Assembly: GCA_903901915.1 (NCBI GenBank)
Contig: CAIUSV010000017.1
Coordinates: 62,001 to 126,000 of the forward strand
Length of the DNA: 64,000 nucleotides
DNA from: an uncultured Rhodospirillaceae bacterium
Lineage (GTDB): Bacteria > Pseudomonadota > Alphaproteobacteria > Rhodospirillales > Magnetospirillaceae
Reading direction: 5' to 3'
Numbering within the stretch: position 1 is the first letter of the stretch; every line of letters begins with the position of its first letter. A program made the position numbers and the translations under genes. The notes below the pieces were generated by a model. That model ran no database searches and was not told where the DNA came from. It worked only from the letters and a program-made list of their open reading frames with translations. Shown piece by piece: positions 5,345 to 25,269 of the stretch.

Positions 5345-6901
5345 CTATCTCAGGCGCTCTTCGATGTTCCGCAGTCCCATCAACGACGCCGATTCCATGG
5401 CACGGATTTTATCTGCAACGGCGGTCGCCCGGAATATTGCGTCCTTCAACGACGCGTTCACAACGTCGGCACCGCCAATGACGTTCACAAGGGTGACGAT
5501 GCCCGCCATCTGGAGAGCGACCGCGGCGCTGGCCCCAAGCGGAAAGCCATAGGTCCCGGAAATGATCGTGGTGCCGTAATCAATCAAGCGTCGCGCGGTC
5601 GCTTCCGCCAGGCTTTCGGCGTTAAGGGTGCTTGCCGCCCTGATCTCACCCAGTCGACGTAGTTGGGCGTCGGTGCATCCATGCGCCTGAATCCGGAAAT
5701 CGGCAAGAGCCATCAGGTTGATCAATCGTTCAGTTTCCTCACCGATCTGGCGCGATATCTTGGATCTGGAGGAGCACGCGGACTCGCCGCGCAAAGCAGT
5801 CGATAGTTTCCTTAAGCCGATCATTATAACATATGCGTTGTTAATAATTATTTCCATCTGGTGAGCGTGGGCGTCATTTCTAAATACGGAGTCATGCCCG
5901 GTGTTCAATTCATCGACCATCTTCCGGTCAATGCCGGTTATGTGGCGAATCCACCAATCATGAAAAAATTTAAATATGTCGTGGTCACATGATGGTAATT
6001 TTACTAGCTCATTAAATAGACATTCTGACTTGTCGTTGAATGATTTGTGATGTGTTTTGTGTTGTTCTCTTCCGCCATAGTCAAACTGACCCATGATGTA
6101 TTCTTCGTGTAAAAAGTGATCGTGTGTGTGTGACCTTATATTTTTATATGCGCGCCTTATCTCGTTTGTCGTACACTCCGTTTTGACCGTGTTAACCAGT
6201 ACGTCCATAAATCTGAAAATCTTCATGTGTTCGAGATCGATGTCTTTGCGTCCGGTCTCGATGGTCGTCGTCCACTCGAACCTAGGCTCGCGCTTGGCGG
6301 TGGTCGGGGCGGCGCAGTCGCCGGTCCGAGGCGTCGCCATGGTGGTTGTGCCGTCGGCGGGGCGGCGAGGGGAGGGAGGCCGTGCCGCCCCCGTCCTCTG
6401 GCGCGGTTCATCATCGGCCCGGCGCAACGGTCCTTTGTAGCCGGAAATGACCGCGCGCCGGCGGTCAGTTCCCCGGAAGGTCGGCGACATTACAAAGGCC
6501 TTCTTTCCGGACATGGCCGACGAAATCGCCATCTCAAGCGCATGCTTGGTGAACGGCGTGCGAAGCATCGCGGTGGCGCCGGCATCTCGGGCATCTGCCA
6601 GCTCGGCGGCGGTCCATTGATCGCTTATTCCGATGACCGGCAGAGAGGGGGGGAAGAGCGATTGCTCCCAGCGAACAAACTTCAATATGGCGAGCTGGCC
6701 GTCGTTCCCCAGGGTGTCGCAGAGCACCAGATCGATCTTGGAGACGGCGTGGCGAAGATGAAGGATTGAATGATCCACATCCTCGGTGGCGGTGATGTTG
6801 GCCACTCCCATCTCGTTCAGCCGCCGAGTGACGAATCGCCGGGTTGCGGCGCTTTGGAATGCGGCCAAAACATTCTGGGGGATAAGTGACGACGGAAGCA
6901 T
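5345..6901 (-). CDS. Pseudo-receiver/haemerythrin/helical domain protein
   Basis: The 518 residues divide into three parts. Residues 8-130 have a receiver-like fold with an Asp (D62, in VLCDTLG) at the phospho-acceptor place, but no N-terminal acidic pair and Arg instead of the conserved Lys (RTP). A Pro/Arg-rich linker spans about 160-205. Residues 207-330 are a haemerythrin domain with all seven di-iron ligands: H225, H262, E266, H281, H285, H320 and D325. The C-terminal 150 residues are helical, have the motif ERLINLMALADFR (391-403), shared with the upstream gene product, and include a hydrophobic segment around 450-478. Haemerythrins bind oxygen, NO or iron. The rest suggests signalling, but no output is recognisable. 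It is the last gene of a four-gene operon, and codon use is AT-richer than the neighbours. Confidence 0.75.
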   Translation of the reverse strand: MLPSSLIPQNVLAAFQSAATRRFVTRRLNEMGVANITATEDVDHSILHLRHAVSKIDLVLCDTLGNDGQLAILKFVRWEQSLFPPSLPVIGISDQWTAAELADARDAGATAMLRTPFTKHALEMAISSAMSGKKAFVMSPTFRGTDRRRAVISGYKGPLRRADDEPRQRTGAARPPSPRRPADGTTTMATPRTGDCAAPTTAKREPRFEWTTTIETGRKDIDLEHMKIFRFMDVLVNTVKTECTTNEIRRAYKNIRSHTHDHFLHEEYIMGQFDYGGREQHKTHHKSFNDKSECLFNELVKLPSCDHDIFKFFHDWWIRHITGIDRKMVDELNTGHDSVFRNDAHAHQMEIIINNAYVIMIGLRKLSTALRGESACSSRSKISRQIGEETERLINLMALADFRIQAHGCTDAQLRRLGEIRAASTLNAESLAEATARRLIDYGTTIISGTYGFPLGASAAVALQMAGIVTLVNVIGGADVVNASLKDAIFRATAVADKIRAMESASLMGLRNIEERLR

Positions 6902-6974
6902 AATTACAGTCCCGGTCGATTTTCAACAATGTGAATTATTGATTTATGCGAAATACTTGAGGTGCATGCCGTGC

Positions 6975-8216
6975 CTAGTGGGCTCTGTCGGCGGATGCCA
7001 TATTTATAATTTTTGAAACCTCGCGCTGAGATCCGACGGATCTATTTGTTTCTTGTTGTATGGTTCGTGATGCGTGTTTTTGTAAATTTGTATGTTTATT
7101 TGAATTTGAAAAGTCGTGTAGTTTAAACATTTCTGTCTCTGTCGCCTCAATCCTGGAAACGGCATCCCAAGCGGAAGCGAGTGAACGCCTCATGCTGTCA
7201 CTGAATTTTCTGCGTCCTTCCATCACAGAGAAGACCTCTTCAAGTCCTATCAACTTCCGCGCAAATAAGTCAGAGCATCCAAGCGATATTTCGTTGCGGG
7301 ATGTTACTGATAGAATATCAGTGTTGATTCTATCAAGCCGATGTTTCGCTATTTGTTCGATCATGTCGAAGAATATCTTCTGTGTTGATTCAATCGTTTT
7401 CCTTAGATTGTAATCTATGTCGTTATTGTGTTCTGTTCTCGTGTCGGCCAGTGCCATCAAATTGACCAGTCGTTGGGCTGCGTCGATCAGCTCGTTGTGC
7501 AATGCTTTTCTGGCGGGGCCTTCGTTCAAGGACGCCAGGGTCGCCCGCAGGCGTTCTATTGTTGCCACCACCTGACGTACGCCACCGATAAGGGTCTGCG
7601 TGCGTTCGGACACGGGGGCTTTTTCCCGGGAGGCAGCTTCGGCGGTTGGCCTTGTGGCGGCTTCCCGTGGGCGGACGGTTGGGGGCTCCGCCGGCTGGGG
7701 GCCGGCTCGGCCATCGGTGGTGTGGCGGAGTGGTCCGTCATATTCGGTGCCTCCCCGACGCCGGCACGGACCGCGGTCGTCTTCGGAGGCCACGAAATTG
7801 CGCCTGTCGCTCAAGGCGCGGTTCACGTTTCGCAACAGAATGCTGGAACTTATCGGCAGCGTGATGACGCAATTCGCCCCCGCATTCAGTATCGCTTCCA
7901 GTTGGTGCGGTATGACTTCGCCGATAACGCACATCACCGGCATGGACGAGGTTCTTTCCGAGGCATCGTTTCGGATGAGGTTGAGTAGACGCAGGGGCTC
8001 TGCTGCCCCGGTCGCCGCGCAAATGACGAGTCCGTGGTCGCTGCTCCACCGCGTGTCGTTGGAAAAGTTTTCTCCAGAGATCGATTCTATGTTTGTAAAT
8101 CCAATGTGCCGAAGGGACATCGTCAATAAGTTACAAAGTAACTTATCATCGCTAATGATTGCGCATGATGTAGTGGCAATGGATGTGTTGTTGATCCGCG
8201 GTGGAGCTATGGCCAA
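6975..8216 (-). CDS. Degenerate receiver protein sharing the NLMALAD motif; TTG start
   Basis: The 413-residue product begins with a receiver-like domain (about 15-135) that keeps the acidic pair (D23, D24) but has Ala at the phospho-acceptor position (VICAATG) and no conserved Lys (ITLP). It therefore cannot be phosphorylated in the usual way. A Pro/Arg-rich linker (145-205) leads to a helical region with QRLVNLMALADTR (248-260), nearly identical to a motif in the next gene's product, then a Ser/Thr/Gln-rich tail. The TTG start is supported by a perfect AGGAGGT five bases upstream. The upstream haemerythrin gene stops only two bases earlier. No known family was recognised. It may scaffold or regulate the haemerythrin proteins made from the same transcript (inference). 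Confidence 0.68.
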   Translation of the reverse strand: MAIAPPRINNTSIATTSCAIISDDKLLCNLLTMSLRHIGFTNIESISGENFSNDTRWSSDHGLVICAATGAAEPLRLLNLIRNDASERTSSMPVMCVIGEVIPHQLEAILNAGANCVITLPISSSILLRNVNRALSDRRNFVASEDDRGPCRRRGGTEYDGPLRHTTDGRAGPQPAEPPTVRPREAATRPTAEAASREKAPVSERTQTLIGGVRQVVATIERLRATLASLNEGPARKALHNELIDAAQRLVNLMALADTRTEHNNDIDYNLRKTIESTQKIFFDMIEQIAKHRLDRINTDILSVTSRNEISLGCSDLFARKLIGLEEVFSVMEGRRKFSDSMRRSLASAWDAVSRIEATETEMFKLHDFSNSNKHTNLQKHASRTIQQETNRSVGSQREVSKIINMASADRAH

Positions 8217-8218
8217 GA

Positions 8219-8692
8219 TTACCTCCTCAGCGCTGCTTCCTGGGCAATTACGCCTAGTGGCCTCTCGTCAATGCGTGTTCTTCCAAGCCAGCTTTGATAT
8301 TGCCGGTGATCCTCCAGGATGTGTTTGTAGAGCCATTTCATCGCAAATTCCGAATGGCTGGCGATGGCTGATTTCACCCCGCTGCGATACAGTTCCGACG
8401 CGGCGTCGATTTTTGCTCTGAATAGTCCATGCTTAAGGCGATATTCTGGAAGTCTATGGTATTTTGCCGCATGTAACGCTTTTTCTTCGCGGTATAAATG
8501 TCCTTCGCAATACTCCTTTAGGAGAAGCAGGGACCCAAATACAAGCTGGTCCATATGCTCATTGTCGCATTTATTAATTAGAGCTATAGTTTCAAAGAGT
8601 GCCTTGTGATCTTGGTCTAGCACGATCAGTCCGACCGTCAAATCGTCAGACCATATGTTGTTTGTTGAATTTATGTCCGTAGTTACTTCCAC
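8219..8692 (-). CDS. Single-domain haemerythrin with altered metal ligands
   Basis: This 157-residue four-helix haemerythrin keeps H29 (LDQDHKALF), H65 and E69 (EGHLYREE), H88 and H124. The position normally held by the first His of the H-x3-H pair is Tyr (Y84, in PEYRLKH). The final Asp ligand is replaced by His (H129), with an Asp one residue earlier (D128). Two of the usual seven di-iron ligands are therefore changed, so metal content or gas chemistry could differ from its intact neighbour encoded just upstream. The gene starts 33 bases after that neighbour and is followed after two bases by the TTG-started receiver-like gene, so it is the second member of the operon. Confidence 0.85.
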   Translation of the reverse strand: MEVTTDINSTNNIWSDDLTVGLIVLDQDHKALFETIALINKCDNEHMDQLVFGSLLLLKEYCEGHLYREEKALHAAKYHRLPEYRLKHGLFRAKIDAASELYRSGVKSAIASHSEFAMKWLYKHILEDHRQYQSWLGRTRIDERPLGVIAQEAALRR

Positions 8693-8725
8693 TATCCATT
8701 CCTCAGGTTTGGCCGCGTTCGACGG

Positions 8726-9181
8726 TTACATGTCGGCGTCCAGGAGAGGGAACGCTCGGTCATCTACATTCTGGCTGGTCAAGAGGCCGCGATATTGCGA
8801 GTCCATTGTCTGGATGTGATTGGCGAGCCACCTCGTGACTAGTCGACTTAGCGAAGTCAGTTCTGCTCTTTTGTGGGATGCCTTGTAATTCGCGATGGCG
8901 CGTTTGACGCGCTTCTCGAATTTGTCGTGGGCGTATATGTGCTCTGCCAGCAATGGGTATTCGGATTTTATCATCGCCGTTTGCTCGCGCAGAAAATGTC
9001 CGTCAATGTATTCTTCAAGAATATTTAGGGCGGTTTCGATCAGGCTCTCGTGTTCCTCGCCAGGCAGGCGCCGCAAATCTTCCAGCAGCGCCGACAGGCG
9101 GAAAAATGCCTGATGGTCCTCATCAAGGCAGCTTTCGCCGACGGACAGGTCTTTCGTCCATGTGGGAAGCGGCTTGGTCAT
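8726..9181 (-). CDS. Bacteriohaemerythrin, single domain
   Basis: The 151-residue protein is one complete haemerythrin domain with all seven expected ligands: H23 (DEDHQAFF), H62 and E66 (DGHFLREQ), H81 and H85 (EHIYAHDKF), and H122 and D127 (NHIQTMDSQY). Bacterial haemerythrins reversibly bind oxygen at a di-iron site. They serve as oxygen carriers for oxidases, as oxygen or NO sensors, or as iron/redox sinks. It is the first gene of a four-gene minus-strand operon. Upstream lies a 515-base AT-rich region shared with a divergent MarR-type regulator, the most likely place for its promoter. Confidence 0.9.
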   Translation of the reverse strand: MTKPLPTWTKDLSVGESCLDEDHQAFFRLSALLEDLRRLPGEEHESLIETALNILEEYIDGHFLREQTAMIKSEYPLLAEHIYAHDKFEKRVKRAIANYKASHKRAELTSLSRLVTRWLANHIQTMDSQYRGLLTSQNVDDRAFPLLDADM

Positions 9182-9696
9182 GAGCGTCCGGCCCCTGAGA
9201 TGGCGGTGTTATGACGGCCGCGGAGTCCTTGGCGGTGACGACGTCGGCCTCCGAGCCCCGTCCCTCCCGTGACACGATTACGTCCGGGTTAACGTAATAT
9301 GCATTATGCACCGAATTACCGGTGGTTGCGCGCTCACTTCGGTCTAGTGATTGCTATCCATTGGGTATGTCCGCTAGTCGTTTATCGCGGGAATGATCGG
9401 ACGATAAATGCGATATATGCAAGCAAATACATATATATGGCAATCATGGGGCGCGGATGGCTAATTTTTCCTGCATCTAAAGCGCATAACGATATCGATA
9501 CATATATCCCTCTTCGTGTATAAATTTATAGATGCAATACGCATATTACTAAAATGGGCGTATATGCCGTATAATCACGATATAGCGCCATGCTATATAT
9601 GTGCATAATCAAAGTAGCTATCGAGATCTTAATCGTTCTAGCTATTGCGCGTTTCTGCGTTGTGCGGCACTATCACCTCCCCTGAGGGAGGGGCGG
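9182..9696. other. 515-base AT-rich intergenic region between haemerythrin operon and MarR gene
   Basis: This is the longest clearly non-coding stretch in the window and is strikingly AT-rich from about 9290 to 9650. It is dense with short alternating-purine/pyrimidine words such as ATATGC, GCATAT, CATATATA and GATATA (for example near 9298, 9411, 9535, 9560 and 9593), several in inverted orientation. It should contain the divergent promoters of the haemerythrin operon (leftward) and the MarR gene (rightward). A TATAAT is present at 9570-9575, but no good -35 element stands at the right distance. The short open frame at 9299-9523 has no ribosome site and no recognisable protein character. Confidence 0.6.
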
Positions 9697-16004: not shown

Positions 16005-16527
16005 CAAGTCCACCCCGGTAATCGGTGAAGATGCGCTCCAGATCCAGCACCGTCACCAGTTGTCCGGCGAAATGGACGATGCCCAATACCAGCAGCTTGC
16101 GGCTTTCGGCGATGGTATGGGGCGGGGGCTGGAGACGGCTTTGCACCACGTCCGTCACCTCTTCCACCGCATCGACGCGCAGACCGCTCCGCATATCGGC
16201 GGTCTGGCACAACAGAATGCGTGAGTTCTGGTGGTCCGGCCCCGGCGGGTAGCCCAGAACGGCCCGCAGATTCACCACCGATTCGATATCGCCGCGGACA
16301 TTGATCACCCCTTCCAGGGATTGCGGGCAACCGGGCAAGTAGAAGACCGGGCTGTCGGGCAGAACCTCCTTCACCTTCTCGCCCAAAAAGGCAAACCAGT
16401 CGCGGCCCAGGGTGAACACCACCAGCTTGATCAACGGCTCGTCCACGTTGATGATGGCCCTGGCTTCGCCCCGGTGGGCTTCCAGGATTTGGTCCAGTGT
16501 GGGATCGGCGCCAGCGCCAGCGGTCAT
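15979..16527 (-). CDS. cheW: CheW chemotaxis coupling protein
   Basis: The 182-residue protein has a CheW domain from about residue 35, with LIKLVVFTLGRDWFAFLG, the receptor/CheA contact region SLEGVINVRGDIESVVNLR, and SGLRVDAVEEVTDV. A 30-residue N-terminal extension precedes it. CheW links the receptor tips to the CheA P5 domain. The ATG overlaps the stop of the upstream GGDEF gene as ATGA, so the two are translationally coupled. This is the fuller of the two CheW-type proteins of the operon. Confidence 0.9.
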   Translation of the reverse strand: MTAGAGADPTLDQILEAHRGEARAIINVDEPLIKLVVFTLGRDWFAFLGEKVKEVLPDSPVFYLPGCPQSLEGVINVRGDIESVVNLRAVLGYPPGPDHQNSRILLCQTADMRSGLRVDAVEEVTDVVQSRLQPPPHTIAESRKLLVLGIVHFAGQLVTVLDLERIFTDYRGGLDGGRTGDD

Positions 16528-18212
16528 GGCAGTGGCTCCAGCCTGGCGATCTCGATGCAGTTGCGGCCCGCCCGCTTGGCGGCGTAAAGCGCCTTGTCGG
16601 CGGCGTCCACAAGCCGGTCGGCCGGAATTTCGGGAAAGCGCGAGATGCCGCCGGAAAAGGTGCACGAAAAACTTCGGTCCCCGGCGTGGAATTTCATCTG
16701 CGAGAAATCGTTGCGCAAGGTGTTGATGACCCCCAACGCCTCCTTCATGCTGATGTTCTGCATGACGATGGCGAATTCCTCCCCGCCATATCGTCCGATC
16801 AGATCGGTATTGCGCAACCGCTGCTGGAGCATGCGGGCCAGCCCGACCAGAACCTGATCGCCCGCCGGGTGGCCATAGGTGTCATTCACGCCTTTGAACA
16901 GGTCCAGATCGATCATCACCATGCAGACCTTGCCGCCGTCGCGCCGGGCCTGAGCCACGGTGGTGTCGAGGTACTGGGACAAGAAAGTGTGGTTGACCAG
17001 ACCGGTCAAGCCGTCCTTGACCATCAGGGAGCGCAGCGTGCGCGTGCGTTCGGCACGGATGGCGACCGCGCTGATCAGGTCTTCGGGCTGGATGGGTTTG
17101 GTCAGAAAGGCTTCGGCGCCGACACGCAGGGCTGAAACCTGGGTCACCTTGTTGGTTTCGCTGGACAGGAACACGATGGGCAGGCTGATGAAGTCGGGAA
17201 TCTGGCGGATAAGCCGCGACAGATCGCGTCCGGAACACTGGGGCATGTACATGTCCATCAGCACCAGATCAGGGCGGAATTCGGCCAAAGCCTCAAGGAT
17301 GCCACTGGGGTTGTGCAGCAGGCGGGTGACCATGCCCGCTTCTTCCAGAATCAGGCTGTGATATTCGGCCACTTCCGGCTCGTCATCCACCACCAGAATG
17401 CGGAATGGGTCGGGGGCGTCCCGCGATGTCAGCGAATCCAGGACCTCGACCACATCGATGGTCCTTACCGGCTTGGTGAAATAGGCTTGACCGCCGGCGA
17501 CCACCGATCGCAGGCGGGCATCGAAGTCCCGCCGCGAAGATACGAAAATCACCGGCGGCGGATTTGGGATATCGTGTCGCAACGAGGCGATGATGTCGGG
17601 GCCGGCATTGTTGCTGCCGGGAAATACGATATCCATGATGACGGCGTCGGGGGGATTGGCCAGTACGGCGGCCCTGAGCGCGTCGGGCGAGGTGAAATTG
17701 GCCACGCCATAGCCGAAGCAACCGAGTTGCGAGGCTATAGCGTCAGCCGCGATCTCGTCGTCATCACACATATAGATGCGCTTGCGGGGCTGACCGCCGA
17801 CGGACCCGACCTCCGTCAGGTCGAATGCGGCTGCCTGGGGGCGGATTTCGAGTTCGATGTCCAGCGCCTGGGCGGCCAAGGTCTGGACATGGGCCAGTAG
17901 GGCGATCATCTCGGCCGCTACCGCCGTGGCCGAGACCGGGCGCGCTTCTTCGTCCAGGGCGCGATATGCCAGCAGCATTTCCTCACCGAGGCCGCCTTGG
18001 GCGCTGATCTTCTCCAGGCCGAACGAGGCGGCGGACCCCTTGAGGGAATGGAAGACACGGTACAGATCGTCCAGCAGGCCCGCATCCTTGGGCGAGACCA
18101 TCAGGCGTTCGCACATCTGGCGGCCCACGGCCACGGTGGTGGGAACCTTGGTCAGGAAGGTGTGGCGCAGCTTCTGGATCTTTTCGCGCAAGGTCGGCTT
18201 GCGAGCGTCCAT
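16524..18212 (-). CDS. Hpt-REC-REC-GGDEF diguanylate cyclase
   Basis: The 562 residues carry four domains. An Hpt domain comes first (about 15-120, phospho-accepting H55 in FHSLKGSAASFG). The first receiver (145-262) has an acidic DDD, acceptor D194 and Lys in FTKP. The second receiver (271-388) has LVVDDEP, acceptor D320 and TKP. A GGDEF domain (about 395-560) has RYGGEEF (474-480) and an intact RxxD inhibitory site (RNTD, 467-470). It should make cyclic di-GMP with product feedback and be switched by phosphorylation from the CheA of this operon, like WspR. The extra Hpt and second receiver mark it as more elaborate than WspR. It lies 3 bases after the preceding receiver gene. Confidence 0.92.
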   Translation of the reverse strand: MDARKPTLREKIQKLRHTFLTKVPTTVAVGRQMCERLMVSPKDAGLLDDLYRVFHSLKGSAASFGLEKISAQGGLGEEMLLAYRALDEEARPVSATAVAAEMIALLAHVQTLAAQALDIELEIRPQAAAFDLTEVGSVGGQPRKRIYMCDDDEIAADAIASQLGCFGYGVANFTSPDALRAAVLANPPDAVIMDIVFPGSNNAGPDIIASLRHDIPNPPPVIFVSSRRDFDARLRSVVAGGQAYFTKPVRTIDVVEVLDSLTSRDAPDPFRILVVDDEPEVAEYHSLILEEAGMVTRLLHNPSGILEALAEFRPDLVLMDMYMPQCSGRDLSRLIRQIPDFISLPIVFLSSETNKVTQVSALRVGAEAFLTKPIQPEDLISAVAIRAERTRTLRSLMVKDGLTGLVNHTFLSQYLDTTVAQARRDGGKVCMVMIDLDLFKGVNDTYGHPAGDQVLVGLARMLQQRLRNTDLIGRYGGEEFAIVMQNISMKEALGVINTLRNDFSQMKFHAGDRSFSCTFSGGISRFPEIPADRLVDAADKALYAAKRAGRNCIEIARLEPLP

Positions 18213-18215
18213 GCC

Positions 18216-18584
18216 TTATCCCTTCGCCCGCGCGGCCATGGCCGCGTCGATGGCTTCGATCAGCGAGGTTTCCAGCGAGAAGTCCTTGGTCAAACAGCCG
18301 TCCAGGCGGGGTTCATCCGCCAGAAGCGGGCCGGGCTCGTCCCCGGTCAGCAAGATGAACGGAATCTCTTCTCCCTGGTCCCGCCAGGAGCGGAACAGGT
18401 CGATGCCGCTGATCAGAGGCATGTTCATGTCGGACACCACCAGATCGAACGGGCCGCCGTCGGACAGCGCGTCGGTGGCATCGACGCCATTTTCCGTCAG
18501 CACCACCTCGTGGCCGGCATCTTCCAACACCGCACCGGTCATTTCGCCCGCCATGGGGTCATCGTCAACCACCAATATTCGCAT
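18216..18584 (-). CDS. Single-domain response regulator
   Basis: The 122-residue receiver starts directly with MRILVVDDDP, has the phospho-acceptor at D52 (VVSDMNMP), Thr in LLTGDE and the conserved Lys in LTKDF. There is no output domain. It lies between the CheA hybrid and the Hpt-REC-REC-GGDEF protein, 25 and 3 bases away, so it is probably a CheY-type output or phosphate sink of this pathway, or a shuttle to the Hpt domain of the cyclase (inference). Confidence 0.88.
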   Translation of the reverse strand: MRILVVDDDPMAGEMTGAVLEDAGHEVVLTENGVDATDALSDGGPFDLVVSDMNMPLISGIDLFRSWRDQGEEIPFILLTGDEPGPLLADEPRLDGCLTKDFSLETSLIEAIDAAMAARAKG

Positions 18585-18609
18585 CGTTCGTCCACTCTGT
18601 CTCGGGTCT

Positions 18610-20700
18610 TTACCCTAGCAAACCCCGCAAGGTATCGACTAGGGAGCTTTGATCGAAATCGCCTTTCACGATATAGGCATCGGCGCCCACCTGGATGCCG
18701 CGCCGCCGATCCTCGTCCTTGGATCGCGAGGTGACGATGATGATCGGGCGCTCGCGGTAGCGGTCTTCCTGGCGTAGCGCCGCCGTCAGCGAGAAGCCGT
18801 CCATGTTGGGCATTTCCACGTCGGTCAGCACCGCGTCGAAATCGCCGGCCCTGGCTTTTTGCAGCCCGTCCAGCCCATCCTCCGCCAGGGTTACCACATA
18901 GCCATGGGCTTCCAGTACATCCTTTTCGATTTCGCGGGTGTTAAGCGAATCATCGACCACAAGAACCCGGAAGGCGCTGTCCTGGCCGGCGGGGGCGTCA
19001 TCGCCGGCCTCGCCCCGGACGAGGCGGGCCATGTCCAGCAGTACCGGGGCATGCAGCACGCTGACCAGCGCGTTGCGCCCGGTCATCACCATGCCGGCCA
19101 CCAGGGGCAGGTGGCGCAGATGAATGGGCAGTGGCTTGATGACCATGTCGCGTTCATCGACAAGGTCATCGACGCGCAGCGCCAGCTTTTCATTCCTGAC
19201 CCGAACCACCACCAGTAAAAGGCCGGATTTGGCGCGGCCCGTGTCCGCCATGCCCAGAAGCCCGGCCAAGGAGACCACCGGGATGAATTCGTTGTCGATC
19301 ACCACCGCGTCGCGCCCGGTCACGTTCAGCAGCCGGTCCGGGGGCAGATCCAGCAGTTGCGCCACGTATTGGGCGGTAAAGCCGAAGCTTTCACCACCGG
19401 CCTGGACCACCAGGACCCGCATCACCGCCAGCGAAAGGGGCAGGCGCAGCGAGAAGGTCGTGCCCTTGCCGGGTACGGTCTCGACACCGATGACGCCTTG
19501 CAGGTCGTCGACGATGGTCCTCTTGACCACGTCCATGCCGACGCCGCGCCCGGAGACTTCGGTGATGATGGAACTGGTGGAGAAGCCGGGCGAGAAGATG
19601 AGGTCGATGGCCTCGGAATCGGGCATGGCGGCGGCCTGCTCGGCGCTGACCAGTCCCTTGCGCACGGCTTTGTCGCGGATGGCGCCCAGGGGCAGTCCGC
19701 CGCCATCGTCGGCGACGTCGATCACCACCCAGCCCCCGTCCTGGCGGGCACCCAGGCGGATGGTGCCGTAGGCTGGCTTACCCGCAGCCCGGCGGATGGC
19801 GGCATCCTCGATACCATGATCGACCGAATTACGCAGCAGATGGACGATGGGGTCGTTCAGCCGATCGATCAACTGGCGGTCCAGCTCGATGTCGGTACCG
19901 GTGAGCTGGCATTCCACATCCTTGCCCAGGGACCGCCCCAGGTCGCGGATCAGCCGGGATGCCGGTTCCAAGACGATGGACAGAGGCAGCATGCGCATGA
20001 CCAGCGCCTTGGCATGCAACTCGTCCATCAGCAGTTCCTGAGAGAACACGTCCTCGCGAAGATCGCGGGCGAACGGGCCAAGGGCCGACGGGTCGGCACC
20101 TTCCACCTCGCGCTCGATCTGGCGGATATCGATCAGGCGCTGGCGCAGCCGGGCATGGCTGGAGACCACCTCGCCCATCAGTCGGATCAATTCGTCCAGC
20201 TTGGTCAGCTGTACCCGCACCGTATCGGCGGATTTGAGCTTAACCTCCGCCTGTCGCGGGATTTCCGTGGCGGTGTGAGGCGGCAGCGCGGCGGGAGGGG
20301 CGGGCTCGTTGCCGTCGCCGGTCAGAACGGCGGCCAGCGCCGCGCACACCCCCCTGTCGGGTTCGCCCGGCGCATCGCCATCGGCGACCTGATCGACCTG
20401 GGCGGCGATGGCATCCACGCCCTGTTGCAGCAGCCGGCGCAAATCGGCACTCCAGGCGAGGCTGCCATCACGCAGCGCGCCCAACACGTCTTCGACGACA
20501 TGGGCGGTCTCGGTGATGGGGATCAGTTTCAGCATCCGAGACGAGCCCTTGACCGTATGAGCCGAACGGAAGATGGCGTTCACGGTCTCGTGATCGGCGG
20601 GGTTGGCCTCCAGGGCCGCCAGACCGTCCTCGACCTTGCGAAGGTGGTCGCGGGCCTCGTCGACGAAGCGGGCGGTGAAGCGCTTGATGTCGAGGGCCAT
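18610..20700 (-). CDS. cheA: CheA-receiver hybrid histidine kinase
   Basis: The 696 residues follow the CheA/WspE plan. An N-terminal Hpt domain has AHTVKGSSRML (H48). A Pro-rich linker leads to the dimerisation domain (about 170-240) and the ATPase domain with N box LLRNSVDHGIED, DDGGG and SGRGVGMDVV. A CheW-like P5 domain spans about 435-560, and a C-terminal receiver from about 577 has acceptor D627 (LTDVEMPNMDG). No separate P2 CheY-binding domain is evident. It should autophosphorylate H48 under receptor control and phosphorylate its own receiver, the operon's receivers and CheB. It lies 3 bases after cheR. Confidence 0.95.
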   Translation of the reverse strand: MALDIKRFTARFVDEARDHLRKVEDGLAALEANPADHETVNAIFRSAHTVKGSSRMLKLIPITETAHVVEDVLGALRDGSLAWSADLRRLLQQGVDAIAAQVDQVADGDAPGEPDRGVCAALAAVLTGDGNEPAPPAALPPHTATEIPRQAEVKLKSADTVRVQLTKLDELIRLMGEVVSSHARLRQRLIDIRQIEREVEGADPSALGPFARDLREDVFSQELLMDELHAKALVMRMLPLSIVLEPASRLIRDLGRSLGKDVECQLTGTDIELDRQLIDRLNDPIVHLLRNSVDHGIEDAAIRRAAGKPAYGTIRLGARQDGGWVVIDVADDGGGLPLGAIRDKAVRKGLVSAEQAAAMPDSEAIDLIFSPGFSTSSIITEVSGRGVGMDVVKRTIVDDLQGVIGVETVPGKGTTFSLRLPLSLAVMRVLVVQAGGESFGFTAQYVAQLLDLPPDRLLNVTGRDAVVIDNEFIPVVSLAGLLGMADTGRAKSGLLLVVVRVRNEKLALRVDDLVDERDMVIKPLPIHLRHLPLVAGMVMTGRNALVSVLHAPVLLDMARLVRGEAGDDAPAGQDSAFRVLVVDDSLNTREIEKDVLEAHGYVVTLAEDGLDGLQKARAGDFDAVLTDVEMPNMDGFSLTAALRQEDRYRERPIIIVTSRSKDEDRRRGIQVGADAYIVKGDFDQSSLVDTLRGLLG

Positions 20701-20703
20701 GGC

Positions 20704-22140
20704 CTATCTCCCGGCCATGCGCGCAGGACGCGCCTGGCGTTCACACAGGAAGCGGATCTCGGCCGCGGGCAGGCCCAGGGGCAGCACCAGGCCGCCATCG
20801 GGATGGGGGTTGACCTCGCCCAGTTGCTGGAGCGTTACCCGATAGCTGCGCTGGGCCGATTCCATCATGCCCAGGGATTTTTGGACATCGGCCAGATAGT
20901 AATGGGCGGGCCAGCACTCGTGCCGGACATAGACCGCTTTCTTCAGCCAGGCGGCGGCATCTTCGAGCTGGCCCTGCCACTTGGCCGCCAGACCCAGCAG
21001 TACCAGGGCATCCACCGACCATTCATCGGCAGCCAGCGCCTTTTCTCCCAATTGCCGCGCCGTCTGGAAATCGCGGCCCAGCAGCCGGACGTAGCCTTCC
21101 AGCGCCAGAAGGTCGGCGGCGGGCCGACCTTGGCGGTTGCGGGGGCCCAGGATCAGGTCGACGCGATCGAATCGCTTGTCGCGAATAAGCGAGCGGATCT
21201 CGTCCAGGTCCGGTTCGGGGGGGGCGGGTCGGGGAATGGGCAATTTGGGTAAAGGCGCGGGGGCGCGGCTTCTCTCCGGGCGGGAAGCGGGAACGGGATG
21301 CGGGGCGGGGACCGCCCGGGGCGGTGCCTTCCGGTGGAAGAAGAAGGCTCCGTCTTCTTCCGCCAAGGTGAAGACGCCGAGATCGTTGGCCAGGGTCTCG
21401 GCGGAGCCGGTCACCAGATGGCCGTGCTCGCACATGGCGTGGGCGAAGCCCTGCTGGATCTGGCGGCGGGTGGCTTCGTCGAAATAGATGGAGACATTGC
21501 GAAAGAACACCACGTCCAGATCGCAAAGCGCCGGAGGGAAACCGCGGGACAGCAGGTTCAGCGGATGAAAGCTCACCATGGCCTTCACCTTGTCGTCCAC
21601 CACCATGGTTCCTCCCGCCAAGGGGTGGAAATAGCGCTGGCGCAGATCGGTGTCGAGGCTGCGGAACGAGAATGCTCCGTAGCGTCCGGCGCGCGCCTTG
21701 GCAAGCGCGTAATGGTCGATGTCTCCCCCCAGGATTCGCACCATGCGGGCCGCCGCCTCGCCATATTTTTCGAGCATGGCGATGGCGATGGAATAGGGCT
21801 CCTCCCCGCTCGAACAGCCCGCCGACAGGATGCGGATGGGAAGTCGCCCGTTCGCCTCGGCCAGCAGTCGCGGCATCAGCCTGTCGGTCAGCAGCCGAAG
21901 CTGTTCCGGCTCGCGGTAGAAATAGGTTTCGTTGATGGTCAGCAAGGTGACGAGTTCCTGGAATTCGTCTTCGTTGGCCACCAGCCTGGCGAAATAGGTC
22001 GGGGCATCGTCCAGCCCCAGGGCGGCAACCCGCTTGTCGATGGCGGCCACCAACGGCTCTTGGCCTAGACCGTCCGACTGTAGACCGCAGTGGCTGCGGA
22101 TCAATTCCTTGAAGCGGGCCAGGGTGCCGGCGTCGATCAC
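20704..22140 (-). CDS. cheR: CheR chemoreceptor methyltransferase with TPR tail
   Basis: The 478-residue protein has an N-terminal CheR all-alpha domain (FKELIRSHCGL) and the SAM-binding domain (about 70-275) with INETYFYREP and SAGCSSGEEPYSIA. After a Pro-rich linker, the C-terminal 170 residues form TPR-like helices (LLALEGYVRLLGRDF and following). CheR methylates glutamates of the MCP. A C-terminal TPR is the hallmark of WspC-type CheR proteins in alternative chemosensory systems. The start overlaps the cheB stop by four bases (ATGA). Confidence 0.95.
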   Translation of the reverse strand: MIDAGTLARFKELIRSHCGLQSDGLGQEPLVAAIDKRVAALGLDDAPTYFARLVANEDEFQELVTLLTINETYFYREPEQLRLLTDRLMPRLLAEANGRLPIRILSAGCSSGEEPYSIAIAMLEKYGEAAARMVRILGGDIDHYALAKARAGRYGAFSFRSLDTDLRQRYFHPLAGGTMVVDDKVKAMVSFHPLNLLSRGFPPALCDLDVVFFRNVSIYFDEATRRQIQQGFAHAMCEHGHLVTGSAETLANDLGVFTLAEEDGAFFFHRKAPPRAVPAPHPVPASRPERSRAPAPLPKLPIPRPAPPEPDLDEIRSLIRDKRFDRVDLILGPRNRQGRPAADLLALEGYVRLLGRDFQTARQLGEKALAADEWSVDALVLLGLAAKWQGQLEDAAAWLKKAVYVRHECWPAHYYLADVQKSLGMMESAQRSYRVTLQQLGEVNPHPDGGLVLPLGLPAAEIRFLCERQARPARMAGR

Positions 22141-23195
22141 GGCCGCTCTCCCTCCGCCAGCAGATCGGCCAGCGCCGCCGCGAGGTCGTTCAGCGGCAGC
22201 ACACGCTGCACCCAGCCCTTGTCGATGGCGATGGCGTTCATGCCGAAGATCACCGAACTGGCCTCGTCCTGCCCCAAGGTGGCACCGCCAGCTTTGGATA
22301 TGGCCTCCATCCCTGCCACCCCGTCGCTGCCCATGCCGGTCAGGATCAGGCCGATGGCATCACGGCCCGCCACGGCGGCGACGCTGGAGAGCAAGGAGTC
22401 GCAACTGGGCCGGTAGATCTGTCCGGACTTGCGCTCTTCCAGCCGGATCAGCCGATCCGGCGTTACGGTCATGTTGGCCTCGGAGGGTGACAGATAGACG
22501 GTGCCGGGCGCCAGTCTTTCGCCATCCCGGCCCAGGCGAACCGGCAGGGGGCAGACACTGTTCAGCCATTGGGCCATACCGGACGCAAAACCGTCCGAGA
22601 TATGTTGGGCCACCACCACCGGGCATTCCGGCGGGCCCGCCATGCCACCCAGCAGGGCGGCCAGCGCCTGGGGACCGCCGGTGGAGGACGCGATGGCCAG
22701 TATCCGCAGGCTTTCGCACCCGGACAGCGGCGGGGCTGGGGGCAAAGCGGCCACTCGTGCCGGCGAGGTGGCGGTAGCCTTGGTACGCGGCATGGTGATG
22801 ACGGGAATCTTGGACACCAGCCGCGCTTTGTCGATGAAGTCCTCTATCGCCTTGGCCGACCTCATGTTGGGCTTGTCCACCACCTCGATGGCGCCCTTGG
22901 AGATGGCCGTGAATGCTTTTTCGGCATCGGCAACACCGCTGACCACCAGGATGGGCCGCGCCCTGGAGCACATGATCTCCTCGATAGCCGCAAGCCCGCC
23001 CATCCTGGGCATTTCCAAGTCCATGGTGATCAGGTCCGGGCGCAGCCGGCGGGTCATTTCCACGGCCTGGACACCGTCGGGCGCCTCGGCAACCACCTCG
23101 AAATCGCCATCGGACTCAAAGATGGTGCGCAGCAACGAGCGCGCCAGCGAACTGTAATCGACAATCAGGACCGAGATCTTGCCGTCACTAGCCAT
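22137..23195 (-). CDS. cheB: CheB chemoreceptor methylesterase/response regulator
   Basis: The 352-residue protein has an N-terminal receiver (acceptor D59 in TMDLEMPRMGG) and a C-terminal methylesterase domain. The catalytic serine is in ASSTGGPQ, the His in VAQHISDGF and the Asp in GMGSDGVAG. It removes methyl groups from the MCP when phosphorylated by CheA. The usual acidic pair reads VDYS instead of VDDS, so one of the two Mg-binding acids is Tyr. The start codon overlaps the MCP stop by one base (TAATG). Adaptation enzymes in the operon show that the receptor is methylation-tuned. Confidence 0.95.
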   Translation of the reverse strand: MASDGKISVLIVDYSSLARSLLRTIFESDGDFEVVAEAPDGVQAVEMTRRLRPDLITMDLEMPRMGGLAAIEEIMCSRARPILVVSGVADAEKAFTAISKGAIEVVDKPNMRSAKAIEDFIDKARLVSKIPVITMPRTKATATSPARVAALPPAPPLSGCESLRILAIASSTGGPQALAALLGGMAGPPECPVVVAQHISDGFASGMAQWLNSVCPLPVRLGRDGERLAPGTVYLSPSEANMTVTPDRLIRLEERKSGQIYRPSCDSLLSSVAAVAGRDAIGLILTGMGSDGVAGMEAISKAGGATLGQDEASSVIFGMNAIAIDKGWVQRVLPLNDLAAALADLLAEGERP

Positions 23196-25114
23196 TAGGA
23201 CTGGGTGGCATCGAGGGAGAAGCTGCGCACCCGTTCACCCAGTTCCCCCGACAGGGCCGTCATCTCGTGGCTCACCTCGCGGATGCGCCCCAGGGACTGG
23301 GCGGTATGGGAACTGGCCGAAACAATCTCGCGAAGCGCGACCACCACCTGGTTGCTGGCGGTCTTCTGCTGCTGGGTGGACAGCGAGATTTGTTGCGCCG
23401 CGCTGGTGGTCTGGCGCGCCGCGTCCACCATTTCGCCCAGCAGGGCGGCGGTGTTGCTGGTGGCCACCAAGCCATCGGTGATACCGGCACCACCTTTTTC
23501 GGAGGTGATGATCAGCCGGCTGATGGAATCCTGGATTTGCGACACCTTGGTTTCGATCTCGCCGGTGGAGTTGGTGACGCTGTCGGCCAGACGGCGGATT
23601 TCGGCCGCCACCACGCCGAAGCGGCGGCCCGCCTCGCCGGCGCTGGCCGCTTCCAGCGCCGCATTGAAGGCGATCAGCTTGGTCTGGTCGGCGATCGTGT
23701 TGATGATGGACATCACCTTGCTGATTTCCTTGGACCGGCTGCCCAATTCCAGGATTTCGCTCAGGCTGTTCTCGTTGTCTTGCTGGATATCGGTCATCTT
23801 GGTCATGACCAGATCCATGGCATCGGCGCCACGCTTGCTTTGCTCCCAGGTCTGGTTGGCGATGTCCACCACCGATTTGGAATGCTCGGAAATCTGGGTC
23901 GACGATGCCGACAGTTCTTCCATGGTCGAGGTGATCTCGGCCACCGACGCCGACATCTGTGTGGACGTGGCCGCCTGGCCCTCCACCGCGCCGTCGATTT
24001 CGTGGATGGAATCAATGGCCGCCAGCGCGTGCGAGCGTACCTGGCCGACAAGGTTGTGGAGACTTTGCCGCATGGCCTCGACCGCATGGGCAAGCTGGCC
24101 GATCTCGTCGCCGCCGCCGCCTTCCACCGGTTGGGCCAGATCTCCCCCCGCCACTCGCGCCACCCCCTGGGCCAGACGGCCGATGCGCCGGGCCAGATGG
24201 CGGGCGGTGGCGGCCGCCAGGCCAAGCCCCAGGGCCAGCGCCAGACCGGCCACCAGCAAGGCGGTGTCGCGGGCCCCGGCCGCGGCGGCCACATAGCGGC
24301 TGCGGTCCATGGAGACCTCGATCACGCCGATGCGCTTGCCGGAGAAATCGGCGATGGAGGCCCCATAGACAGCGTGGGGGACTCCTTGCGCCGTGGTGTG
24401 CATCATCTGGGGTTCACCGGCCAGTGCCTTGGACAGGGCTGTTTCGTCGAAGCCGGCGGTCTTGCCCATTGTCGAGGCGAAGGTCTGGAACTTGCCGTCC
24501 TCGGCCAGATACAGGGCGATGTCCACGTTGTGCTCGGCCTTGAAACTATCGAAGAAGCCCTGGCCGAACGTCAGGCCGATTTCCACCGTGCCGAGATAGC
24601 GGACGCTGTTGCCGACCGGCACGACGCCCCGAATGCCCAGACCGGCGACACCGCCTTCCAGGCCGCGGGTGGGTTTGCGGCTCTCGTTGGCCATGACCAC
24701 GGTACGGCGGAAGGCCGACAGGTCGTCGCCGAACTTCTCGGGCTTGTGCAGGCGAAGGAAAGAGGTGGCCGGCGCGGTATGGAACTGGAACTGTTCGACG
24801 CCGAATCCCTGGGCGATGGACTTGAAGCTGGGTAGCAGCGCCGCCAGCAGCGCGGTACGGTCGCCGGCGCCGAACTTGTCTTGCACGAAGGGAAGCGAGG
24901 CGGTGAAAGTGGCCAGGGATTCCGCCGTGCGGCTTTCCAGCCCGATCCGGTCCGAGACGGCCTTCATATGCCCTTCCAACTCGGCGCGTTCGGCTTGGCC
25001 GATGACGTCTTCCATGGCGCGCAGGTTGGACAGGGTGAGCATGAGCGCGACCGCGATGACGGTCGCCCCCATGGCCAGCATCAGCTTCATCCCAAGCCGC
25101 AAATTATCGAACAT
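23195..25114 (-). CDS. Methyl-accepting chemotaxis protein with periplasmic Cache domain
   Basis: The 639-residue receptor has transmembrane segment 1 (about 10-30) and a periplasmic domain to about 275 that resembles the double-Cache dCache_3 type (FQFHTAPATSFLRLHKP). Transmembrane segment 2 (about 278-300) is followed by a HAMP domain and the long signalling hairpin, with the conserved tip region EAASAGEAGRRFGVVAAEIRR split around position 475-495. The ATG at 25114 is chosen because GGGGAT is seven bases upstream. A TTG at 25126 is less likely. As first gene of the chemosensory operon it supplies the signal input. dCache_3 domains of this kind bind small extracellular ligands, here unknown. 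Confidence 0.92.
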   Translation of the reverse strand: MFDNLRLGMKLMLAMGATVIAVALMLTLSNLRAMEDVIGQAERAELEGHMKAVSDRIGLESRTAESLATFTASLPFVQDKFGAGDRTALLAALLPSFKSIAQGFGVEQFQFHTAPATSFLRLHKPEKFGDDLSAFRRTVVMANESRKPTRGLEGGVAGLGIRGVVPVGNSVRYLGTVEIGLTFGQGFFDSFKAEHNVDIALYLAEDGKFQTFASTMGKTAGFDETALSKALAGEPQMMHTTAQGVPHAVYGASIADFSGKRIGVIEVSMDRSRYVAAAAGARDTALLVAGLALALGLGLAAATARHLARRIGRLAQGVARVAGGDLAQPVEGGGGDEIGQLAHAVEAMRQSLHNLVGQVRSHALAAIDSIHEIDGAVEGQAATSTQMSASVAEITSTMEELSASSTQISEHSKSVVDIANQTWEQSKRGADAMDLVMTKMTDIQQDNENSLSEILELGSRSKEISKVMSIINTIADQTKLIAFNAALEAASAGEAGRRFGVVAAEIRRLADSVTNSTGEIETKVSQIQDSISRLIITSEKGGAGITDGLVATSNTAALLGEMVDAARQTTSAAQQISLSTQQQKTASNQVVVALREIVSASSHTAQSLGRIREVSHEMTALSGELGERVRSFSLDATQS

Positions 25115-25269
25115 GCTTATCCCCAACTTATCTTCCGCTTTATTGGATCATCGCGGTCGATAGGTATCTTGGCAAGTGATTCCCTGTATTTCCAAGGTAC
25201 TGGGGCGATCAAATCATGACTAACGTCGTGGCCGCAGTTCGTATCGTCGCAACCGTCAGTTACTGGTCG

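Follow-up and report, generated by a model that had tools for sequence, protein, structure and literature searches.

In a 64,000-nucleotide stretch of DNA from an uncultured Rhodospirillaceae bacterium (contig CAIUSV010000017.1, positions 62,001 to 126,000; hereafter the window), two proteins of a four-gene haemerythrin operon share a short motif. This motif forms the centre of a helical domain of ~160 residues that is homologous in the two proteins; the domain was previously undescribed and is named MALAD here. The MALAD proteins constitute a new domain family whose context is haemerythrin signalling, and the family is strongly tied to magnetosome-bearing genomes. For the operon itself, we put at about even chances the reading that it is a haemerythrin-based oxygen/redox (or nitric oxide, NO) signalling module of this magnetotaxis-tied family. 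Contigs of the source organism's own genome are given C-numbers below, genomes of the same family G-numbers, and fetched loci L-numbers.

A preliminary description of the window had noted two single-domain haemerythrins followed, in a tight operon, by two larger proteins, one of them with a haemerythrin domain of its own. The layout was confirmed by the coordinates of the four open reading frames (ORFs), which stood as first given in the order HrA, HrB, P413, P518, and by the haemerythrin model PF01814, whose curated cut-off of 25.3 bits was exceeded by both small proteins and by P518 (35.4 bits). The intergenic gaps were 33 bp (HrA–HrB), 2 bp (HrB–P413) and 73 bp (P413–P518). The start codon of P413 was preceded by AGGAGG. 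The features are as follows.

8726..9181, minus strand: HrA, single-domain haemerythrin of 151 aa with the C-terminal tail LLTSQNVDDR (PF01814, 46.7 bits)
8219..8692, minus strand: HrB, single-domain haemerythrin of 157 aa with the tail WLGRTRIDERPL (PF01814, 27.4 bits; two ligand positions replaced)
6975..8216, minus strand: P413, degenerate receiver, GPCRR linker and MALAD domain; TTG start
7131..7604, minus strand: MALAD domain of P413, residues 205-362, motif at 248-260
5345..6901, minus strand: P518, degenerate receiver, GTDRR linker, haemerythrin domain and MALAD domain
5903..6286, minus strand: haemerythrin domain of P518, residues ~206-333, with the full set of seven ligand positions
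5387..5878, minus strand: MALAD domain of P518, residues 342-505, lying in a stretch predicted to form five long helices, motif at 391-403
9182..9600, no strand: AT-rich intergenic stretch upstream of HrA, presumed promoter region (48% GC; window 63.5%)

The MALAD domain

The motif was found exactly where it had been placed, as ERLINLMALADFR at residues 391-403 of P518 and QRLVNLMALADTR at residues 248-260 of P413. When the C-terminal regions of the two proteins were aligned, ~157 residues were covered and the score was 110, whereas none of 2000 shuffles exceeded 59; for their N-terminal regions the score was 119, and the shuffles reached 52 at most. Because these scores lie far above the shuffle maxima, the similarity of P413 and P518 is not a chance one. 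The source genome was found to encode seven MALAD proteins, namely P518, P413, one each on C11, C84, C28 and C74, and one on C36. The C36 paralogue joins a haemerythrin and a MALAD domain to a further C-terminal region; the second match on C36 was a short fragment. A paralogue with a haemerythrin domain, a MALAD domain and an extra C-terminal region was seen at L015:3915-5444, and we take this last region to resemble a C-terminal domain of some chemoreceptors.

Searches for a known family behind the motif region gave nothing convincing. In Pfam, one of 16 members gave a match, at E 0.051; NCBIfam likewise held no convincing family, and no match was found among PDB sequences. Modelled alone, the MALAD domain of P518 showed five long helices with a predicted local distance difference test score (pLDDT) of 83.4. 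In the fold comparison, the best Foldseek E value was 0.12 and the best VIA Z score was 10.5, which is below the level that VIA quotes for helical bundles. The earlier view of an unnamed haemerythrin/pseudo-receiver system with an unrecognised motif region, for which Pfam, PDB sequences and fold comparison supplied no clear match, held up, and such a system would fit a role in sensing oxygen, NO or redox state. The top structural rows, t-SNARE, STAT and 14-3-3 helical bundles (Z ≤10.5), were put down to generic packing of helices. The invariant columns of the MALAD alignment include no His, and the idea of a phosphotransfer (HPt) domain was therefore dropped. In a literature search, no paper was found on a haemerythrin with a pseudo-receiver, nor on a haemerythrin with a response regulator receiver in Magnetospirillum.

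MALAD also occurs on its own. Thirteen standalone proteins of 185-236 residues were aligned from other members of the bacterial family, and ten of these, taken as a profile, matched A1, a MALAD profile made from both window proteins and five paralogues, with an hhalign probability of 98.9 and an E value of 3.9e-17. The neighbours listed at five standalone loci were unrelated genes. Core MALAD residues were kept across the subfamilies, and paralogues were kept outside the magnetosome island. In a tree of 88 MALAD domains, P413 stood at an open fork in an 18-row clade (91/90) that included the 453-aa type near mamV; P518 stood at an open fork in a 42-row clade (90/85) that held nearly all P518-type proteins, and also the 409-aa type and others. 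The window thus joins HrA, HrB, a P413-type and a P518-type gene, which at the other loci examined stand alone or are combined differently.

Distribution and location relative to magnetosome genes

Profile A1 matched 29 of 55 genomes of the family. Strong hits (E<1e-20) were found in 21 genomes, all of them in open frames of ≥258 aa. The MamB model passed its cut-off in 20 of the 55 genomes, and MamM, which was tested in 12 genomes (11 of them MamB-negative), added G003. Strong MALAD hits were present in 20 of the 21 genomes with a MamB- or MamM-model match versus 1 of the 34 others, giving a Fisher p of 8e-13 for MALAD versus a magnetosome CDF match, uncorrected for relatedness. The exception among the CDF-positive genomes was G012, which has standalone forms instead; the sole strong-hit genome among the 34 others, G011, is 80% complete and belongs to the same genus as G012. 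Within genus g15, the four of 13 genomes with MamB were exactly the four with MALAD (4/4 versus 0/9). The single MamB-model match in each of G034 and G037 scored 412 bits, a size given by a MamV protein with the MamB model, and judging from this score it is probably MamV. In a sample of the class, in which at most nine candidates were scored per genome, MALAD was found in 2 of 385 genomes, the source genome and G014 of the same family.

The tie was also seen in gene position. Four MALAD genes lie ≤~15 kb from mamV, at the end of the mamAB cluster, in G039 (which we take to be M. magneticum AMB-1), G043 and G044. A gene of the P518 type (receiver, haemerythrin and MALAD domains; REC-Hr-MALAD) adjoins mamD or mamC in G008, G049 and the source genome (on C11), and lies ~4 kb from mamC in G021, presumably M. 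gryphiswaldense MSR-1. In G039, G043, G044 and G021, genomes of one or two contigs each, 15 of 19 MALAD genes (one weak fragment left out) were within ~35 kb of a mam gene and four were elsewhere. In the source genome, mamB was found on C77 and mamV on C84, and the MALAD paralogues on C11 and C84 share their contigs with mam genes. The gene taken to be MamF had no match in NCBIfam; MamQ in L078 was a partial ORF below its cut-off. A 188-aa protein with no Pfam match was observed at L078:10191-10757, next to HrA and a MALAD gene in the vicinity of mamV, and a 58% relative of it follows the C74 MALAD gene.

Since MALAD genes cluster with mamV and mamFDC, it was considered whether the family serves magnetosome biomineralisation. 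The haemerythrins would then regulate oxygen or the redox state of iron around the growing magnetite, and the MALAD proteins would be adaptors associated with the magnetosome. Some magnetospirilla-specific island proteins encoded outside the mam operons, not matched to MALAD genes, have been detected in M. gryphiswaldense fractions of membranes or magnetosomes (PMC3197154), which would suit such a role. Against it, M. gryphiswaldense with deletion A3, which spans mgr4079-4088 in the interval from mamGFDC to mamAB, kept wild-type Cmag, crystal size and crystal number; two of the three haemerythrin-like genes of the island fall within A3 (PMC3197154). The same interval of G021, seen save for ~1.6 kb on the mamAB side, held two haemerythrin genes, HrB149 and REC-Hr-MALAD525. 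Deletion A3 therefore probably removes an HrB/P518-type pair, and the normal magnetosomes after this probable loss argue against biomineralisation, which we regard as distinctly unlikely. The authors of the deletion study pointed out that homologues elsewhere may compensate for the loss of A3 (PMC3197154).

Haemerythrins, pseudo-receivers and chemoreceptor partners

The seven haemerythrin positions taken as di-iron ligands (five His, one Glu and one Asp) were invariant in 12 aligned REC-Hr-MALAD proteins, P518 included. HrB did not have the full ligand set in the alignment, the helix-3 His being replaced by Tyr and the last Asp by His. HrA was 53% identical to the HrA of L078. By eye, HrA and HrB represent two tail types, of which the HrA type recurs, and HrB-type genes recur upstream of P518-type genes. 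The source genome (4.1 Mb) contained 54 PF01814 matches. Of these, 51 were checked for a VD type of C-terminal tail, all but P518 and the two matches with the lowest scores. Seven had it, five of them encoded no more than ~5.5 kb from a MALAD gene; the remaining two, on C41 and C12, have none at such a distance.

Such numbers of haemerythrins would also fit an oxygen-handling or detoxifying operon, in which HrA and HrB carry or scavenge O2 or NO, and P413 and P518 regulate respiration or another process unrelated to taxis. M. gryphiswaldense has 26 haemerythrin genes, some of which rise in anoxic growth, and their role is described as undetermined (PMC9549626); the unrelated neighbours at the five standalone-MALAD loci also point in this direction. 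This alternative is nevertheless unlikely in our judgement, as strong MALAD hits are nearly confined to genomes with magnetosome genes and a chemoreceptor operon is found in relatives (see below). Haemerythrins near mam genes have been noted in a magnetotactic coccus (PMC5088516), and a haemerythrin gene was named among the upregulated genes in an iron transcriptome comparison (PMC5459824).

Both receivers were found to be degenerate, as had been proposed: P518 scored 16.9 bits with PF00072 (cut-off 30.2 bits), and P413 passed the cut-off of no receiver model. In the AlphaFold2 model of P518 (mean pLDDT 70.7, pTM 0.35), residues 5-135 adopted a CheY-like fold with Z scores of up to 18.8 versus CheY chains. 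The acceptor Asp was kept in 12 of 12 aligned P518-type proteins and absent from 14 of 14 of the P413 type, and the conserved Lys was absent from all 12 and all 14, respectively. In P413 itself, the phospho-acceptor Asp is replaced by Ala and the conserved Lys by Leu. The acidic pair, which we placed by eye against CheY, is Phe-Gln in P518 and is kept as Asp23-Asp24 in P413. The phospho-competent set of acceptor Asp, acidic pair and Lys together is therefore absent from both proteins. The linker, of the form F...GPDRR...Y.GP.RR, was ruled out as a novel part because it is present in 162 of 385 genomes of the class sample (at most 20 candidates scored per genome), the source genome included; among the matches listed, it was mostly in open frames of ~165-250 aa. 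Pseudo-receivers with a GPDRR linker and no MALAD domain were observed at L012:5300-6518 and L014:4135-5313, the latter with a long tail, rich in Pro and Ala, that runs off the contig.

The loss of HrB ligands and the degenerate receivers, together with a GC content of 53% in the operon versus 63.5% in the whole window, might suggest that these genes are passengers linked to the magnetosome island, with little selected function and with a decaying copy in the window. It would be in line with this that the island deletions A3, A4 and A5 gave no magnetosome phenotype (PMC3197154). Nevertheless, the invariance of the haemerythrin ligand positions in the 12 aligned proteins, the core MALAD residues kept across subfamilies, the paralogues kept outside the island and the intact long ORFs in the window weigh against this, and we regard a passenger status as very unlikely.

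In relatives, the P518-type gene was found together with genes for a PAS protein and a methyl-accepting chemotaxis protein (MCP). In G034, and in G039 (where L078 and L132 were joined by coordinates), the run was PAS, MCP, HrB, Hr-receiver and REC-Hr-MALAD; in a second G039 copy and in G043, G048, G038 and G040, a 459-aa Hr-receiver (461 aa in G040) replaced HrB and the Hr-receiver. Pfam confirmed MCPsignal, PAS and haemerythrin, and the receiver in the 285-aa protein; for the 459-aa protein it gave haemerythrin only, the receiver-like part being recognized by eye. The MCP is presumed to be of the Amb0994 type from its position. Ten close copies of its N-terminus (88% or more) were found. Six share a run with a REC-Hr-MALAD gene; three more, the island copies in G039, G043 and G044, are ~4 kb or less from such a gene and on its strand, so that nine of the ten have this proximity and orientation. 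The tenth, G034:C116, belongs to a contig outside the neighbourhood survey. A further 60-residue MCP fragment (87%) was seen in G049. No paper was found on amb0979, 0980, 0983, 0991, 0992 or 0993.

A wider survey covered 84 MALAD genes predicted in 21 genomes by a simple gene caller; the set omits the C36 paralogue, G005:C77, the G034:C129 and L130 fragments and the 13 standalone proteins. Among the 31 genes that encode a haemerythrin domain, a haemerythrin gene was found upstream in the same-strand run in 18 and an MCP gene in the run in six. Thus, parts of the gene order recurred; the exact four-gene order, whose absence from related genomes the preliminary description had named as a refutation of its reading, was that of the window copy only (1/84). 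The notion of a self-contained device was not borne out either, since the source genome has at least seven MALAD paralogues, the P518 type is encoded with a chemoreceptor in relatives, and strong hits follow magnetosome genes.

Taking these results together, the following scheme is proposed for the signalling module. HrA and HrB would be small soluble haemerythrins handing a ligand or redox signal to P413 and P518, which would serve as pseudo-receiver scaffold proteins, P518 adding a putative complete di-iron site of its own between receiver and output. The receivers are probably docking domains rather than phosphorylation switches. The output would be the five-helix MALAD domain, acting by protein–protein contact, most likely on the chemotaxis machinery. 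A contact-type output is favoured because domain-library searches found no DNA-binding or enzyme domain in P413 and P518 and because of the MCP operon in relatives; neither protein had a PF00015 (MCPsignal) match. The chemotaxis machinery is the likely target because the operon of close relatives pairs with an Amb0994-type PAS/chemoreceptor. Ligand sensing, the contact partners and a magneto-aerotaxis role in the source organism are what we infer.

Several observations weigh against the signalling module. The window operon has no PAS or MCP gene upstream in its run, which limits this reading; the own genome showed no close Amb0994-type MCP, the best by E-value having 39% identity. A nearer one is possible there, because a 60-residue match on C25 (52%) is cut off at the contig end. 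The four-gene order is unique to the window, and of the 53 surveyed MALAD genes with no haemerythrin domain, six had an upstream haemerythrin gene and none an MCP gene. From the two replaced ligands, the di-iron site of HrB looks impaired. Standalone MALAD proteins occur in MamB- and MamM-negative genomes, so the MALAD domain itself is not specific to magnetotaxis. MamM coverage was 11 of 35 MamB-negative genomes; ten of the 34 CDF-negative genomes were MamM-tested and all were negative. With 18 magnetosome-region queries, neither the window nor C17 1-75000 gave a match, which makes the window operon a copy outside the known clusters (the query labels MmsF, Mms36, Mms48, MamK, MamA, MamP, MamO, MamE and MamS are presumed). 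Finally, no disruption of aerotaxis was detected on deletion of amb0994-0995 (PMC12442639).

A bolder version of the signalling reading, possible but on balance doubtful, is that MALAD and its haemerythrin partners form a dedicated, undescribed branch of magneto-aerotaxis, in which a di-iron oxygen sensor on a pseudo-receiver sets a MamK-linked chemoreceptor of the Amb0994 type. Amb0994 has been linked to magnetotaxis (PMC6056624) and is likely part of a bipartite PAS/MCP system; a MamK-linked magnetoreceptive role was proposed for it and was not seen in M. gryphiswaldense mutants (PMC12442639). If true, this branch would join oxygen sensing to magnetic navigation, and in the source species it would also run outside the known magnetosome clusters, with no receptor gene of its own. 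There is no settled account of how magnetotactic bacteria link the sensing of oxygen to alignment with the magnetic field, and what the literature says about the role of the numerous haemerythrins of magnetosome islands and their surroundings is speculative and calls for further work. The MALAD family gives concrete genes to delete and proteins to test.

Upstream of HrA, the nearest thing to an FNR box was a site at 9347-9360 with two mismatches, one of 33 of that kind in the window. TTGATNNNNATCAA, with ≤2 mismatches, occurred 33 times in the window versus 13.8 expected from shuffles, perhaps reflecting codon usage. Sigma-70 and terminator scans were near chance (6 versus 4.0 and 4 versus 6.1, respectively), with no convincing sigma-70 site. 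A plasmid origin was rejected, as P413 had no match in PLSDB, a tool that may omit near records. A chemotaxis cluster was observed at 16524-25126 of the window (minus strand), ~7 kb from the operon and on the same strand, encoding a dCache MCP, CheB, CheR, CheA with a receiver, a receiver and an Hpt-receiver-GGDEF protein.

Comparison with known systems

The haemerythrin-like genes of the M. gryphiswaldense island are probably the same genes as HrB149, REC-Hr-MALAD525 and HrA163, three against three in the G021 stretches scanned. The available text of PMC3197154 terms them only haemerythrin-like, with no mention of the receiver, the MALAD domain or the family.

DcrH is a single MCP. The haemerythrin model of P518 superposed on DcrH-Hr with a Z score of 19.9 and a root-mean-square deviation of 1.8 over 130 residues; P518 differs from chemoreceptors of the DcrH type in having no MCPsignal match. 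With CheY and the class receivers that carry a GPDRR tail, P518 shares the receiver fold (Z 18.8 to CheY) and the linker type, whereas the Lys is lost in all aligned proteins and the acceptor Asp in the P413 type. From the MCP and PAS proteins Amb0994/Amb0995 of M. magneticum AMB-1, and from CetA2/CetB2 of M. gryphiswaldense, the window operon is set apart by having neither an MCP nor a PAS gene; the likeness lies in the relatives, where the P518-type gene stands last in a run with PAS and MCP genes.

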